Source: Bacteroidota bacterium (GTDB taxonomy: Bacteria; Bacteroidota; Bacteroidia; Chitinophagales; Chitinophagaceae). Taken from it: 63,275 nt of DNA. Position 1 is the first letter of the stretch. Each line of letters opens with the position of its first letter. The stretch is taken from contig JAKQEA010000029.1 of assembly GCA_029558715.1 (NCBI GenBank), positions 1 through 63,275 on the forward strand, in the 5' to 3' direction. The notes under the pieces are model-generated. The model was not told the origin of the DNA and made no database searches. It saw nothing but the letters and a program-made list of their open reading frames with translations. The translations under genes were made by a program, and so were the position numbers. This document shows, piece after piece, positions 34,151 to 61,685 of the stretch.

Positions 34151-34170
34151 AATTAGCCGATATAAACGAC

Positions 34171-34192
34171 AAAAATACCAGCAGGTATTTTT
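34171..34192. promoter_or_regulatory. Palindromic operator candidate for the nos-linked Rrf2 regulator
   Basis: AAAAATACC (34171-34179), AGCA, GGTATTTTT (34184-34192): perfect 9-bp arms. It lies 21 bp upstream of the Rrf2 start codon, in the position of an autoregulatory operator, and 9 bp from the first Crp/Fnr-type box of the nos promoter. Confidence 0.55.
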
Positions 34193-34200
34193 TGAATGGG

Positions 34201-34265
34201 TGACAAATATCACAATAGCTGATGATGAATGTCAGATTGCCCGGAAAAGGACCAAAATACATTTG
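34201..34265 (+). promoter_or_regulatory. nos promoter: tandem Crp/Fnr-type boxes plus -7
   Basis: Box 1 TGACAAATATCA (34201-34212), 10 bp, box 2 TGATGAATGTCA (34223-34234), 23 bp, then TACATTTG (34258-34265, perfect TAnnTTTG). TTG at 34237-34239 lies 18 bp before the -7. Box 2 is centred about 42-44 bp before the expected transcription start, the classic activator position. Confidence 0.7.
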
Positions 34266-42276: not shown

Positions 42277-42346
42277 TTGTTTTCCCCGTATACGACAGTT
42301 GAACTTAGTAGAGCAAACAATATTGTTCACTTTTAAAATACAGTAT

Positions 42347-42802
42347 ATGGAAACCAAAGCACTTGACAAACCGAGGACTTCCTGGCCTACTATGTTTGAT
42401 ACAGGCTGGATGGATAAGTTTTTCAATGCTCCATTAGTAGACGAGTTTTTCAATTTCGGTAAAGTAATGAATGTCCCGGCTGTTAACGTAAGTGAAACAG
42501 ATAAGGAATTCAAACTGAACATCGCTGCTCCAGGTCTCGAGAAAAAAGATTTCAAAGTAGAAGCTATCGATGACATGCTGACTATCAGCGCTGAGCATGA
42601 AAGAGAAGAGAAAGAAGAGAAAAACGGACGTTTTAACCGCCGTGAATACAATTACAGCAGCTGGACCCGGAGTTTTACCCTTCCTGAAAACTGCGATGCA
42701 GGCAAGATTGATGCAGAATACAAAAATGGGGAATTGAAAATTGCTATTCCAAAGCTGGAAGTAAAAGAACCCAAAAAAGTAAAAAACATTTCTGTGAACT
42801 AA
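42347..42802 (+). CDS. Small heat-shock protein (Hsp20/alpha-crystallin)
   Basis: A 151-residue holdase chaperone. The alpha-crystallin domain covers about residues 43-137 (VNVSETDKEFKLNIAAPGLEKKDFKVEAID...) with FNRREYNYSSWTRSFTLPENCDAGKIDAEYKNGELKIAIPK. Start is the ATG at 42347; a TTG further upstream lies in the promoter region. It is preceded by Crp/Fnr-type boxes, which would tie it to low oxygen or nitrosative conditions, and is followed by a strong terminator. Confidence 0.9.
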   Translation: METKALDKPRTSWPTMFDTGWMDKFFNAPLVDEFFNFGKVMNVPAVNVSETDKEFKLNIAAPGLEKKDFKVEAIDDMLTISAEHEREEKEEKNGRFNRREYNYSSWTRSFTLPENCDAGKIDAEYKNGELKIAIPKLEVKEPKKVKNISVN

Positions 42803-43242: not shown

Positions 43243-44304
43243 TCAGTAAAGCAGGTGTTTCAGTTTCTCAATATTACTGATGCTGATCTTACCGTCTTTT
43301 ATCTCAATAAGTTTCTCCGATTTAAAATCACTAAGTGTACGAATCAATGACTCAGTAGCCGTGCCTACATAATGGGCAATATCTTCCCGTGAGATTTCTA
43401 TTGGCTTGTTCTCTCCGGCTGCATTAAACTTACCATGTATATCCACCAGTGCTTTGGCCACCCTTTTACGCAACGAACTATAGGCCAGGCTCAATAGTCG
43501 TTCTTCCTTTTCTTTTACATTCTGGGTGATAATCCGGATAAACTTGGAGGCAACAGTTATATTGCCTTCTATCATTTGCTGGAAATCTTCCCTTGGCACC
43601 TGCACTATCTCAGTATCTTCCAAAGCCACGGCAGAGTCGTCATAATTTTTCTCTTCGATCAATGCAGGATAACCCACAAAATCACCATCGCTATAGAGAT
43701 CAGTGATATATTCCTTACCATCCTCATGAGTCTTAAACCCTTTTACTTTTCCTTTTACAACGTAGTAAAGAAATCTCGGCCTCTTTCCTTCCGCATAGAT
43801 AACCTGCTTCTTCGTATAAATCTCTGAATTATAATTATCCGGGTTGAACTGCAGCATGCCGTTTTCCCGCAGGTCGTTTGCCAGTTCACTCAGGCCTTTA
43901 CCACTGGGATCGTACTTCTTTTGCAGTATATCATACTTCTTTAGCCTTGATTCAATGGCATTCATCAACTCTATTTCCTCAAAAGGCTTGGTCACATAAT
44001 CATCAGCTCCCATCTCCATTCCCTTACGCAGATCACTTCTTTCTGCTTTGGCTGTTAAAAAAATCAACGGAATGTTTTCTGTTTCAGGATTTTTGCGCAG
44101 CAGGTGAAGTACGCCATAACCATCTAACTCCGGCATCATTATATCACAAACGATCAGGTCCGGTTTGGCTGTTAATGCAGCCTCCACTCCTTTTTTTCCA
44201 TTTTCAGCAGTTACTGTTTTGTAACCGCCTAAAGAAAGTATTTCTGCAGTATTTTCCCTGATATCTTCGTTATCATCAATAATAAGGATAGTTCTTTGTG
44301 ACAT
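43243..44304 (-). CDS. Response regulator / Crp-Fnr hybrid transcription factor
   Basis: A 353-residue protein. Residues 1-120 are a receiver domain (ILIIDDNEDIRE acidic pair, LIVCDIMMPELDG phospho-acceptor Asp, FLTAKAE, VTKPFEE lysine). About 150-270 is a cyclic-nucleotide-binding-like domain (FNPDNYNSEIYTKKQVIYAEGKRP; YSDGDFVGYPALI). The C-terminus is a Crp-type HTH (ISREDIAHYVGTATESLIRTLSDF). Start at 44304 excludes an unlikely leader. The only Crp-family gene in the window, it is the best candidate for the TGA-N6-TCA boxes, two of which lie upstream of it. Confidence 0.9.
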   Translation of the reverse strand: MSQRTILIIDDNEDIRENTAEILSLGGYKTVTAENGKKGVEAALTAKPDLIVCDIMMPELDGYGVLHLLRKNPETENIPLIFLTAKAERSDLRKGMEMGADDYVTKPFEEIELMNAIESRLKKYDILQKKYDPSGKGLSELANDLRENGMLQFNPDNYNSEIYTKKQVIYAEGKRPRFLYYVVKGKVKGFKTHEDGKEYITDLYSDGDFVGYPALIEEKNYDDSAVALEDTEIVQVPREDFQQMIEGNITVASKFIRIITQNVKEKEERLLSLAYSSLRKRVAKALVDIHGKFNAAGENKPIEISREDIAHYVGTATESLIRTLSDFKSEKLIEIKDGKISISNIEKLKHLLY

Positions 44305-44353
44305 AGTGCAGCTTTTAGTTAAACAGTAGTGCAAAATAGGTAAAACCATCGTT

Positions 44354-55209: not shown

Positions 55210-55965
55210 TTAATGCCGTTCCAAAAGTTCTTTTTCCATAGCTATTGCTTTGGGAAATAATATGTCATTTTCAAGGTGCAAATGCTGAACAAGATCATCA
55301 TCCAGTTCTTTTAAAAGTGAATAGGAGAGTGTATGGCTGGTACAAGCCGCCTCCGGGGCTGTATAATTATTGGTAAGTTTTCGAAGCTGATGCAATGTTT
55401 TTTCCAGAATTTCATGTTCATGATGCATAATATCTTCTACAGGTTTTCGCAGTGTCCGTACCAACAGACTTGCATATGACTCTTTACTTTGAAAAGCATG
55501 TGCGATTTGTCGTATGTATGGAAAGATGATCTCTTCTTCCTGGAGCAAATGCGGAATCATGGTTTTATCCAAAAAGTTGACATGACTCTCGACTTCTGCC
55601 AGGTATGGGTATTTTTTCAGGTGCTCGGCCACAAATTTCCCCAGTTGCTCTTTTATAGAAGGTAATGACTGGCGCAGGTATTCATGATGAATATTGACAA
55701 TATAATCTGTCAAAAAATCAATTTTCCATGTTTCGAAAGGGAGATAGCCGGGAATGCTGATGACCCTGCTGGCCTGTCTTAATTCTTTTAAGATATTATC
55801 CAGGTCCAGGTCTTTTGTCTCGCAAACCATTTTGAGTGGCCACCTGCCCCCGCAACAAAACTCTATCCCGTACTTCCGGAACACAGTGGCGGTACGGTAA
55901 TGCTGTTTCACAATATCTGCAGCACAGGAATTCTCACTAATAAGGGTAGAATGGGTCAGCTTCAT
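55210..55965 (-). CDS. ric: Iron-sulfur cluster repair di-iron protein (Ric/ScdA), copy 2
   Basis: A 251-residue paralogue of the 41441 gene. The DUF542 part has the canonical FRKYGIEFCCGGRWPL. Hemerythrin ligands lie in NIHHEYLRQSLP, HLLQEEEIIFPYI, MHHEHEI and VQHLHLENDILFPKA. Start at 55965 (MKLTHSTLISENS) is chosen over 56025 because a -7-like element (TATTTTG at 55983-55989) with an activator box 23 bp upstream places the transcription start inside the longer frame. Confidence 0.9.
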   Translation of the reverse strand: MKLTHSTLISENSCAADIVKQHYRTATVFRKYGIEFCCGGRWPLKMVCETKDLDLDNILKELRQASRVISIPGYLPFETWKIDFLTDYIVNIHHEYLRQSLPSIKEQLGKFVAEHLKKYPYLAEVESHVNFLDKTMIPHLLQEEEIIFPYIRQIAHAFQSKESYASLLVRTLRKPVEDIMHHEHEILEKTLHQLRKLTNNYTAPEAACTSHTLSYSLLKELDDDLVQHLHLENDILFPKAIAMEKELLERH

Positions 55966-55982
55966 ATTTTCACTTTCGCGGG

Positions 55983-56024
55983 CAAAATAGCAATATGCCT
56001 GACCGTAAAACCTGATTTTAATCA
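55983..56024 (-). promoter_or_regulatory. ric (copy 2) promoter with Crp/Fnr-type box
   Basis: On the minus strand TGATTTTAATCA (56013-56024, perfect dyad) ends exactly 23 bp before TATTTTG (55983-55989), the same spacing as in the tandem-box promoters. A second box 22 bp further (56035-56046) is only degenerate. Confidence 0.6.
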
Positions 56025-56085
56025 TTGTGTACAGTAAAAAAAGTTAATGATATCTTTTTTGCCGGGATTAATGAGAAAAACCAAC

Positions 56086-56150
56086 TGACTTATATCATTT
56101 ACCGGGATGACTAATGTCACTTTGCCGGCATCGGGGGCTCTGTACTTTTG
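56086..56150 (+). promoter_or_regulatory. Tandem-box promoter of an apparent small RNA
   Basis: Box 1 TGACTTATATCA (56086-56097), 10 bp, box 2 TGACTAATGTCA (56108-56119), 23 bp, then TACTTTTG (56143-56150, perfect TAnnTTTG). TTG at 56122-56124 is 18 bp before the -7. Every spacing equals that of the nos promoter. The 309 bp between ric and the next gene hold only this promoter, the ric promoter and the candidate RNA. Confidence 0.7.
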
Positions 56151-56156
56151 ACTCAG

Positions 56157-56250
56157 AGGTGAAAAAATACACTTAAAATGTGGCTCATGAAAATGAGCTA
56201 TCGTTGGTTTTTGTTTCAATGTCAACCCCCGGTTCCCCGGGGGTTTCTAT
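56157..56250 (+). ncRNA. Candidate small RNA under Crp/Fnr-type control
   Basis: Predicted from a perfect promoter upstream and an intrinsic terminator at its end, about 95 nt in all. It contains a GCTCAT-GAAA-ATGAGC hairpin with a GNRA loop (56183-56198), then a U-rich single-stranded stretch (about 56200-56222), then the terminator stem AACCCCCGG/CCGGGGGTT (56224-56245). A 51-codon frame from ATG 56178 runs through the terminator and into the next gene out of frame; I judge it non-coding. The alternative is a leader of the 56275 gene. Confidence 0.5.
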
Positions 56251-56255
56251 TTCTG
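56224..56255 (+). terminator. Intrinsic terminator of the candidate small RNA
   Basis: AACCCCCGG-TTCC-CCGGGGGTT is a perfect 9-bp, GC-rich stem with a tetraloop, followed by TCTATTTCTG. No protein gene ends upstream of it on this strand, so it needs another transcript to explain it. Confidence 0.7.
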
Positions 56256-56274
56256 TTTGCATTAACTTTATGTT

Positions 56275-56655
56275 ATGAGATTTTGCTTTATCCTGCTGTT
56301 GTTTTTTTCTTTCTTTTCGGCCTGTTCAGATAAAAATGAAACAGCAAAAGATAATGAACTGCCGGTAGTCATCATTAACAGTCCGGCAAATAACCAGGTA
56401 TTCACCAATGGGCAGTTGATAAATATTAGCGGGAGTATTACTGATAACGTTTATATAGCTGAAGTACATATTCATGTAAGCAATATAAATACCGGGACCC
56501 TGATCATGGATGTTCACCAATATCCTGGCAGCAACAATACGACTTTCAATCAGTCATTAACGGCGGTATCGGGAGTGAATTATAAGATACAGGTGATTGC
56601 AAAAGACCGGGCTGTAAATGAAGGGCGCAGCACCGTTGATGTTTCCTGCAACTAA
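56275..56655 (+). CDS. Lipoprotein with Ig-like (DUF4625-like) domain
   Basis: A 126-residue lipoprotein (lipobox FSAC, Cys17). The mature part is a single beta-sandwich (LPVVIINSPANNQVF...INISGSITDNVYIAEVHIHVSN...YKIQVIAKDRAVNEG) resembling DUF4625 or similar cell-surface Ig-like domains. A near -7 (TAACTTTA, 56263-56270) ends 4 nt before the ATG. trmD follows after 20 bp. Function unknown. Confidence 0.7.
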   Translation: MRFCFILLLFFSFFSACSDKNETAKDNELPVVIINSPANNQVFTNGQLINISGSITDNVYIAEVHIHVSNINTGTLIMDVHQYPGSNNTTFNQSLTAVSGVNYKIQVIAKDRAVNEGRSTVDVSCN

Positions 56656-60644: not shown

Positions 60645-61685
60645 ATGAAGGCACTGACAGTAATTACGGATCCGGTTTATACAGAACCAAAGGAATTTTC
60701 GCAATATGAAAGATTCTGGCTGAAATATATCAATGATAAAAGGGATCTTCCATTTATTCATCTGCTGACTGCCATTCATATCCTGGTAATTCCTGTGGCC
60801 ATTTTATTATATACACCTGTATTACAGGGCTGGTATTGGTGGCTGGCATATATTCCCTATTTCTATATCTCCCAGATGTATTTCAAAGGCCGGTTTGGTT
60901 TAATGCTTCATTGTATCAGCCACCGCAAGCTTTTCAAAAAACCATATACCTGGATTTATAATTATGTTATCTGGTTTGTATGCCCATTTTTTGGCCATAC
61001 TCCTGAAACTTATTTTGCTCATCACATGGGCATGCATCATGTGGAGAATAATATGCTTGATGATGCCAGCAGCACTTTGCCTTACCAGAGAGACAGTCTC
61101 CGGGGATTTATAGCTTATGTAAGCCGTTTCCTTCTTCTTGGGTTCAGGGACACTTTTATGTATTTTTTTAGTCGTAAGAGAAAGAAATTTTATATGCGGC
61201 TCACAGCCGGTGAGATTTCATTTTACCTGTTCTGTGTGGGAATGAGTTTTGTGAATTTTCATGCCACCCTGTTTATTTTCATTATCCCCTTTGTTTTTGC
61301 CAGGATAGTTATGATGCTGGGTAACTGGGCACAGCATGCCTTTGTAAACCTCGATGACCTGGAAGATAATACGATCAATTGTATCAATACCAAGTATAAC
61401 CAGATGTGCTGGAACGATGGTTATCATGCCATCCATCATGTACGCCCCGCCATGCATTACACCGATATCCCCGGCGAATTTTTAAAAACAAAGGATGAAC
61501 TGGCACAAAAGAAAGTATTGGTCTTTGATGGTATTCATTACCTGCATATATTTCTCTGGCTGATGACCAAACGATATGATAAGCTGGCTGACAATCTCGT
61601 TAATATCAATAATATGTTTGGCAGCAAAGAAGAAGCCATCGCATTAATGAAAGAACGAACTAAAAAGTTTAAACCTGCTGCATAA
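60645..61685 (+). CDS. Membrane fatty acid desaturase-like protein
   Basis: A 346-residue di-iron membrane enzyme with three histidine clusters: HCISHRK (about residues 89-95), FAHHMGMHHVENN (about 125-137) and DGYHAIHHVRPAMHY (about 261-275), plus NWAQHAF. Four or more TM helices. It likely introduces a double bond or hydroxyl into acyl chains or carotenoids; the substrate cannot be read. The 180 bp upstream (60464-60644) are AT-rich with no clear feature. Confidence 0.88.
   Translation: MKALTVITDPVYTEPKEFSQYERFWLKYINDKRDLPFIHLLTAIHILVIPVAILLYTPVLQGWYWWLAYIPYFYISQMYFKGRFGLMLHCISHRKLFKKPYTWIYNYVIWFVCPFFGHTPETYFAHHMGMHHVENNMLDDASSTLPYQRDSLRGFIAYVSRFLLLGFRDTFMYFFSRKRKKFYMRLTAGEISFYLFCVGMSFVNFHATLFIFIIPFVFARIVMMLGNWAQHAFVNLDDLEDNTINCINTKYNQMCWNDGYHAIHHVRPAMHYTDIPGEFLKTKDELAQKKVLVFDGIHYLHIFLWLMTKRYDKLADNLVNINNMFGSKEEAIALMKERTKKFKPAA

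Follow-up and report, generated by a model that had tools for sequence, protein, structure and literature searches.

FnrS, the enterobacterial small RNA (sRNA) to which the locus described here has been likened, works with Hfq. Its expression depends on Fnr and at least 32 mRNAs are under its control (PMC5703892), and the same source mentions low-oxygen or nitrate control for PhrS and PaiI of Pseudomonas. SdhX derives from the 3' end of the mRNA of a TCA-cycle operon and is Hfq-dependent (PMC6393394). According to PMC11697453, FopS of Bacteroides has 14 members in one genome, which are transcribed from canonical sigma-ABfr promoters and carry, before the terminator, a single-stranded seed region that binds near start codons; an RRM-type protein, RbpB, is associated with FopS.

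The window, i.e. the whole stretch of 63,275 bp of a Chitinophagaceae genome analysed here, probably encodes a stand-alone, low-oxygen, Hfq-independent sRNA that acts in trans by base pairing and would be FnrS-like in action without being FnrS. The predicted RNA, about 96 nt long (56155-56250, plus strand), is bordered by ric (DUF542 and hemerythrin domains; 55210-56025, minus strand) and by a gene encoding an Ig-like small protein, probably a lipoprotein (56275-56655). The promoter, hairpin, U-rich stretch and terminator pointed out in a preliminary description, with no protein gene ending there, can all be read in the window between 56086 and 56250. Two Fnr-type boxes, one distal (TGACTTATATCA, 56086-56097) and one proximal (TGACTAATGTCA, 56108-56119), precede a Bacteroidota -7 box (TACTTTTG, 56143-56150), all on the plus strand. 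The -7 consensus, TAnnTTTG, is placed at -12 to -5 (PMC9723704); transcription is therefore predicted to start at A56155, with boxes centred at about -41.5 and -63.5. The candidate RNA unit stands as proposed, its predicted start lying two bases upstream of the 56157 given initially. The spacing is indeed that of the nos promoter, since 22 bp separate the two boxes and 35 bp the box from the -7 box at 34223 too. Single-box sites (box 35 bp from a -7 box with at most one mismatch) number four in the window for 0.88 expected, and one of 100 shuffles of the window reaches at least four.

The nos region (34170-34265) carries one Fnr-type box pair flanked on either side, at 35 bp, by a -7 box, which gives divergent predicted promoters, one at 34223 (plus strand) directed towards nos and the other at 34212 (minus strand) towards a gene resembling Rrf2. 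Between the nos and cbb3 clusters lies a gene (43243-44349, minus strand) encoding a fusion of a receiver, a cNMP-binding domain and a Crp-type HTH, a protein that may be the activator of the small RNA. A further motif of the ric leader, GTTGGTTTTT (minus strand), was dropped, being absent from one copy (L003).

The RNA would begin with a weak hairpin (AGGUG...CACUU, 56157-56174), present in long-leader copies only, followed by a GAAA-loop hairpin (56180-56201), the U-rich core, which is the proposed seed (GTTGGTTTTTGTTTC, 56203-56217; base 10 is T or C in other genera), and an intrinsic terminator (AACCCCCGG-TTCC-CCGGGGGTT, 56224-56245) whose U-rich tail extends to about 56250, all on the plus strand. 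The predicted 96-nt transcript has a folding energy of -35.7 kcal/mol (z = -4.62), which none of 200 shuffles equalled, and its core is partly paired in this single-sequence fold. The terminator has seven G-C pairs, the highest number among the 16 terminator-like sites between 50 and 60 kb of the window. The U-rich core is found as a single exact copy in its own genome, and no multicopy family of the FopS/GibS kind is therefore seen there. Although FopS and GibS are also sRNAs of Bacteroidota, this copy number and the Fnr-type boxes set the present RNA apart from them.

No Rfam family reaches its gathering score in the window, and the weak matches of 56000-56300 (best FasX, E 0.22) lie far under these scores. 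The absence of any FnrS row at E<=5 for 56000-56300 in Rfam, which we take to include FnrS, agrees with the initial statement that no homology to FnrS was claimed. The resemblance in layout holds: as in FnrS, a short stand-alone RNA lies behind Fnr-type boxes and combines a hairpin, a U-rich stretch and a terminator, low-oxygen expression is expected and pairing with several mRNAs is predicted. The two differ, however, in phylum, promoter type and candidate targets, and no Hfq (PF17209) was found in any of 38 genomes, own included, whereas the same search found it in 5 of 14 control genomes. Low-oxygen control, here predicted, is likewise shared with PhrS and PaiI, but these are proteobacterial and no Rfam row related to them appears in the window, a comparison in which only families held by Rfam could show.

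The promoter survey covered 33 distinct copies with a terminator (identical 80-nt cores merged; coding matches L245 and L314 excluded), 28 of them stand-alone and five behind a long ORF. A perfect TGAn6TCA box lies 35 bp before a -7 box (at most one mismatch) in 22 of the 28 stand-alone copies, and the second box, 22 bp further upstream, is also present in 19 of the 28; in L076 the better -7 box sits at 36 bp. When box-to-TAnnTTT distances are counted with no geometry imposed, 35 bp is found 19 times and 57 bp 18 times out of 41, and box pairs are 22 bp apart in 19 cases out of 19. A box near -41.5, from which Fnr would activate a gene of the FnrS type, is present with its spacing and conserved, as judged from sequence geometry. 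The six remaining stand-alone copies, none of which has a perfect proximal box, comprise three whose genomes measure 1.9-2.1 Mb (L009, L013 and L078) as well as L258, L269 and L301. In three genomes with no strong match to the RNA (L184, L186 and L187), a TGAn6TCA box located 35 bp before a TAnnTTT motif, near ~2285 and downstream of trmD, precedes a gene like that of window positions 60645-61685.

A covariance search in relatives, which had been proposed as a check, recovered the RNA gene in the genus and in other genera of the family. DNA matches (BLAST, E<1e-6, 58 genomes including own) were restricted to 18 of 34 genomes of the same genus, with none in 23 genomes of the same order. A covariance model built on 17 aligned rows (near-copies L005 and L007 excluded) reaches at least 64 bits in 23 of 42 genomes of the genus, own included; a 40-bit match in G010 keeps both boxes, with a -7 box at 35 bp (by eye), and has a more altered core. 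The full layout is also found in two other genera of the family (G175, 59.9 bits; G153, 58.7 bits; G227, 41.9 bits), these three and three genus members being the yield of a sample of 298 genomes of the order. Model matches of about 25-38 bits are other terminators where inspected, several of them behind hsp20-like genes.

An 18-nt core pattern occurs in at least 116 stretches of named genomes. A script flagged a stem after the core in 23 of the 80 labelled matches listed; L213, L221 and L223 were removed, and the 20 retained come, among the matches listed, from Bacteroidota/Bacteroidetes, Sphingobacteriales, Chitinophagaceae, Terrimonas and Cnuella. L261 (Flavisolibacter ginsengisoli) and L237 (Bacteroidetes) have terminators too, by eye, and 11 of 36 further core-pattern loci resemble copies among the matches listed, several of the records duplicating genomes already held under G handles. 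Exact core matches in G057 (L060) and in contig C453 of G004 (L061) are not copies of the RNA, no GC-rich terminator following them; on its opposite strand, however, L061 offers a candidate target. A scan of viral contigs for the C-variant core followed by CCC gave no match.

The U-rich core remains constant while the flanking stems change by compensatory pairs. Indeed, core bases 2-15 are invariant in all 17 aligned rows found by BLAST, and a C at base 10 is found in the copies from other genera recovered by the covariance model (L092-L094); the copies retrieved by means of the core pattern are uninformative in this respect, since the search itself demands an invariant core. Both sides changed in 10 of 17 pairs of the alignment (22 cells versus 8.2 in shuffles); four of five covariation measures were never matched in 500 shuffles and the remaining one was matched in 15, and the consensus structure outscores its slid versions in the 17-row alignment. 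In the terminator, both-side changes affect 4 of 9 pairs and 99.3% of cells are paired; in the pre-core hairpin, they affect 6 of 8 model pairs, with only 64.2% of cells paired because this hairpin slides and gets rebuilt. A stem of at least 5 pairs directly before the core is found in 24 of 28 distinct copies (100 shuffled sets: mean 5.25, maximum 10).

These data bear on two alternative readings of the locus. The first, a short translated ORF of 51 codons starting at 56178, had been named at the outset as the conservation pattern that would speak against an RNA, and it now deserves practically no credence. An in-frame ATG is present in 16 of 25 copies but absent from the nine others, frame lengths range from 6 to 259 codons across copies with no shared end, the window frame itself reads through the terminator and the stretch from core to terminator shows one-base indels. 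Furthermore, the base-10 change of L092-L094, copies found without the core pattern, would replace Leu by Ser whereas third positions are fixed. With both-side changes in 10 of 17 pairs and hairpins in 24 of 28 copies, the comparison of RNA and protein conservation favours the RNA, and the hallmark of a trans-acting sRNA, own promoter and terminator without a conserved frame, is found at the sequence level. A minus-strand frame of 67 codons with a TTG start (56022-56225) overlaps the RNA too. The second reading, a merely conserved terminator whose core has no regulatory role, could draw on the five copies that, according to the script, terminate a protein-coding transcript; as the terminator stems vary around a constant core and 22 of 28 distinct stand-alone copies have their own conserved promoter, it is extremely improbable.

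Very unlikely as well is a role in cis, as a leader or attenuator controlling either trmD or the lipoprotein gene that follows. trmD does lie 68-567 nt downstream in 18 of 19 loci (pattern), and also in the 19th locus and in G153 and G175. However, the spacing to trmD is not constant and the genes in between differ or are missing, a TATCTTTG box lies 12 nt ahead of the trmD start in L008, L009, L013 and L014, the RNA of G227 is about 174 kb away from trmD, and G001 keeps the lipoprotein gene and trmD without the RNA.

The putative sRNA module is not always stand-alone. In five copies (G017, G026, G088, Cnuella takakiae and L297), it starts 7-12 nt past the stop codon of a membrane cytochrome c gene, and Flavisolibacter ginsengisoli, found by eye, provides a sixth copy of this kind; the Pfam domain Cytochrom_C was confirmed for L049 only. 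By reading, the cytochrome c gene is preceded by SCO-like and oxidase genes in L049, L052, L116 and L261, and no SCO-like or oxidase gene of at least 130 codons was seen upstream on the same strand in L276 and L297. As trmD is found downstream of this 3' UTR form in Flavisolibacter, L049 and L052, the latter occupies the same place as the stand-alone form. The six copies behind a cytochrome c gene recall SdhX, from which the RNA nevertheless differs by its own promoter in the window and in most distinct copies.

Target prediction for the U-rich stretch, also proposed initially, gives support to a pairing role at the level of prediction, complements being found in start regions. The exact complement of 14 nt of the core, GAAACRAAAACCAA, occurs 43 times in 41 genomes of the genus, versus five for a reversed-pattern control; these 43 matches correspond to 22 RNA genes, one partial copy and 20 sites elsewhere. 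In RNA-bearing genomes, 7 of the 15 exact complements outside the gene fall in the interval from -14 to -23 relative to a start codon according to ORF reading (G018, G027, G021 twice, G011, G004 and G014), leaving uncounted a site on contig C10 of G031 that precedes a possible ATG by 24 nt yet is contained in a longer frame. Five complements, too few to serve as a control, belong to RNA-less genomes, one of them at +3 of a ccoG-like gene (G058). A wider search (11-mer followed by an ATG) provided 60 sites among the matches listed, which with nine earlier ones make 69 scored sites, one of them (L325) scored by hand as lying outside start regions. Among the matches listed, start-region sites amount to 13 of 17 when pairing reaches at least 14 nt versus 14 of 52 below (Fisher p 4e-4), and to 6 of 6 at 16 nt or more, values in which a start position is partly built in, since a downstream ATG was required and start regions are A-rich, the ATG requirement lifting the baseline in both pairing classes. 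The seed is thus conserved and, as far as prediction goes, complementary to the start regions of unlinked genes.

Ten candidate targets are predicted to pair at -18.9 to -29.0 kcal/mol; for 46 hand-listed start regions of the window, the mean is -10.4 and the best value -17.4 kcal/mol. nosF, nosZ and ccoG (-17.4, -17.2 and -16.2 kcal/mol) were rejected as targets, since they fall within the tail of these 46 window genes. Pairing extends over 18-21 nt in G021, G014, G018, G011 and G027, although for three of these (L124, L125 and L329) another genome's variant would pair longer, and over 14 contiguous nt for the own-genome target, with which 4 of 13 other seed variants pair better. The own seed is the best or tied for nine of ten targets when three seeds are compared, and the best for three of ten (L384, L124 and L330) when 14 variants are compared, the other seven being beaten by 1 to 7 of 13; 36 of 2000 seed permutations equal the real summed extension. 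These comparisons are at most suggestive of targets following the seed variant of their own genome, and this weak specificity has lowered our confidence in the sRNA reading from high to reasonably good.

One site recurs between a gene encoding a PAP2/haloperoxidase-like protein and the next gene. In G018 and G027 the latter is gene X, whose 356-aa product has no Pfam match and looks barrel-like by eye; in G021 it encodes an FG-GAP protein, and in G024 and in the own genome, where the contig ends, another protein. Among the eight genomes harbouring gene X, G018 and G027 have a perfect site, G009 and G008 match at 14 of 15 positions, G031, which has the RNA and a broken-up gene, has a degenerate site (11/15), and G062, G001 and G058 have none (10/15). 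G008 and G009 have no strong match to the RNA despite their 14/15 site; as they have no trmD match either, the RNA locus may be unassembled there. The other leaders are those of proteins without any Pfam match, of two DUF1801 proteins and of an aquaporin; for two of the last three, pairing is limited to 14 nt. The candidate targets are thus mixed and do not clearly make up a set of aerobic enzymes.

The strongest rival of base pairing is the binding of a protein to the core. The latter would then be the site of an RNA-binding protein of the RRM type, like RbpB in Bacteroides, and the RNA a protein sponge or a stabiliser of mRNA 3' ends, the complementarity to starts being secondary or due to A-rich leaders. 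The core is U-rich, nearly invariant and adjoins the terminator, six of its copies lie behind a cytochrome c gene, hsp20-like genes are followed by a related GTTGGTTTTGGTTT-terminator module, and the seed variant of the own genome is not clearly preferred by the targets. Moreover, RbpB is described as binding single-stranded parts of sRNAs (PMC11697453). However, from protein binding alone one would expect neither 7 of 15 exact complements to fall between -14 and -23 relative to a start nor longer complementarity to be associated with a start-region position, and this explanation is therefore considered unlikely.

Under the base-pairing reading, an activator of the Crp/Fnr type bound at -41.5 and -63.5 would switch the gene on at low oxygen, as the site geometry shared with nos suggests, giving a transcript that would start at about A56155 and end at the terminator (56245-56250). 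Comparison of the copies shows that the hairpin and the terminator flank the proposed seed GUUGGUUUUYGUUUC, which is predicted to pair over about 14-21 nt with an A-rich sequence at about -25 to -5 relative to start codons; such pairing would block ribosome entry. The mRNAs of Bacteroidota are described as naturally devoid of Shine-Dalgarno sequences (PMC6847099), and blocked initiation would be the simplest outcome of seed pairing. The RNA would act without Hfq, possibly helped by an RRM-type protein, RRM proteins being candidate helpers by analogy, and in some relatives the module at the 3' end of the cytochrome c mRNA would presumably be freed by processing.

If confirmed, this would be an oxygen-linked regulatory RNA of environmental Bacteroidota, present in genomes that gave no Hfq match, for which a defined promoter, an unchanging seed, a list of candidate targets and two genomic forms can be described. 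It would allow base-pairing control to be tested without Hfq and without Shine-Dalgarno leaders, and would open the question of how nos-carrying Chitinophagaceae shift translation as oxygen falls. A literature search returned, among the matches listed, no paper on this RNA or on a Fnr-type sRNA of Chitinophagaceae. A broader and rather doubtful extension is that of a family-wide, Hfq-independent respiratory riboregulator of Chitinophagaceae, in which a single seed-terminator module, either stand-alone and Fnr-controlled or forming the 3' end of cytochrome c mRNAs linked to oxidases, would couple the translation of mRNAs whose leaders are A-rich to oxygen supply, the hsp20-linked GUUGGUUUUGGUUU module being a heat-stress sibling with an overlapping seed.

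The hsp20-linked sequence, CTCATAAGCAGTTGGTTTTGGTTTA (GTTGGTTTTGGTTT, GUUGGUUUUGGUUU), overlaps the RNA core and is found with a terminator behind hsp20-like genes in L114 (contig C9 of G000), L086, L087, L095, L096 and L115; it is possibly a sibling 3'-UTR module. The hsp20-like gene of the window (42299-42802) does not carry it. In three copies from small genomes (L009, L012 and L013), the predicted RNA begins with AGAGGTGAAATT(C/T), a start that resembles what we take to be a conserved stretch of 16S rRNA near position 690.
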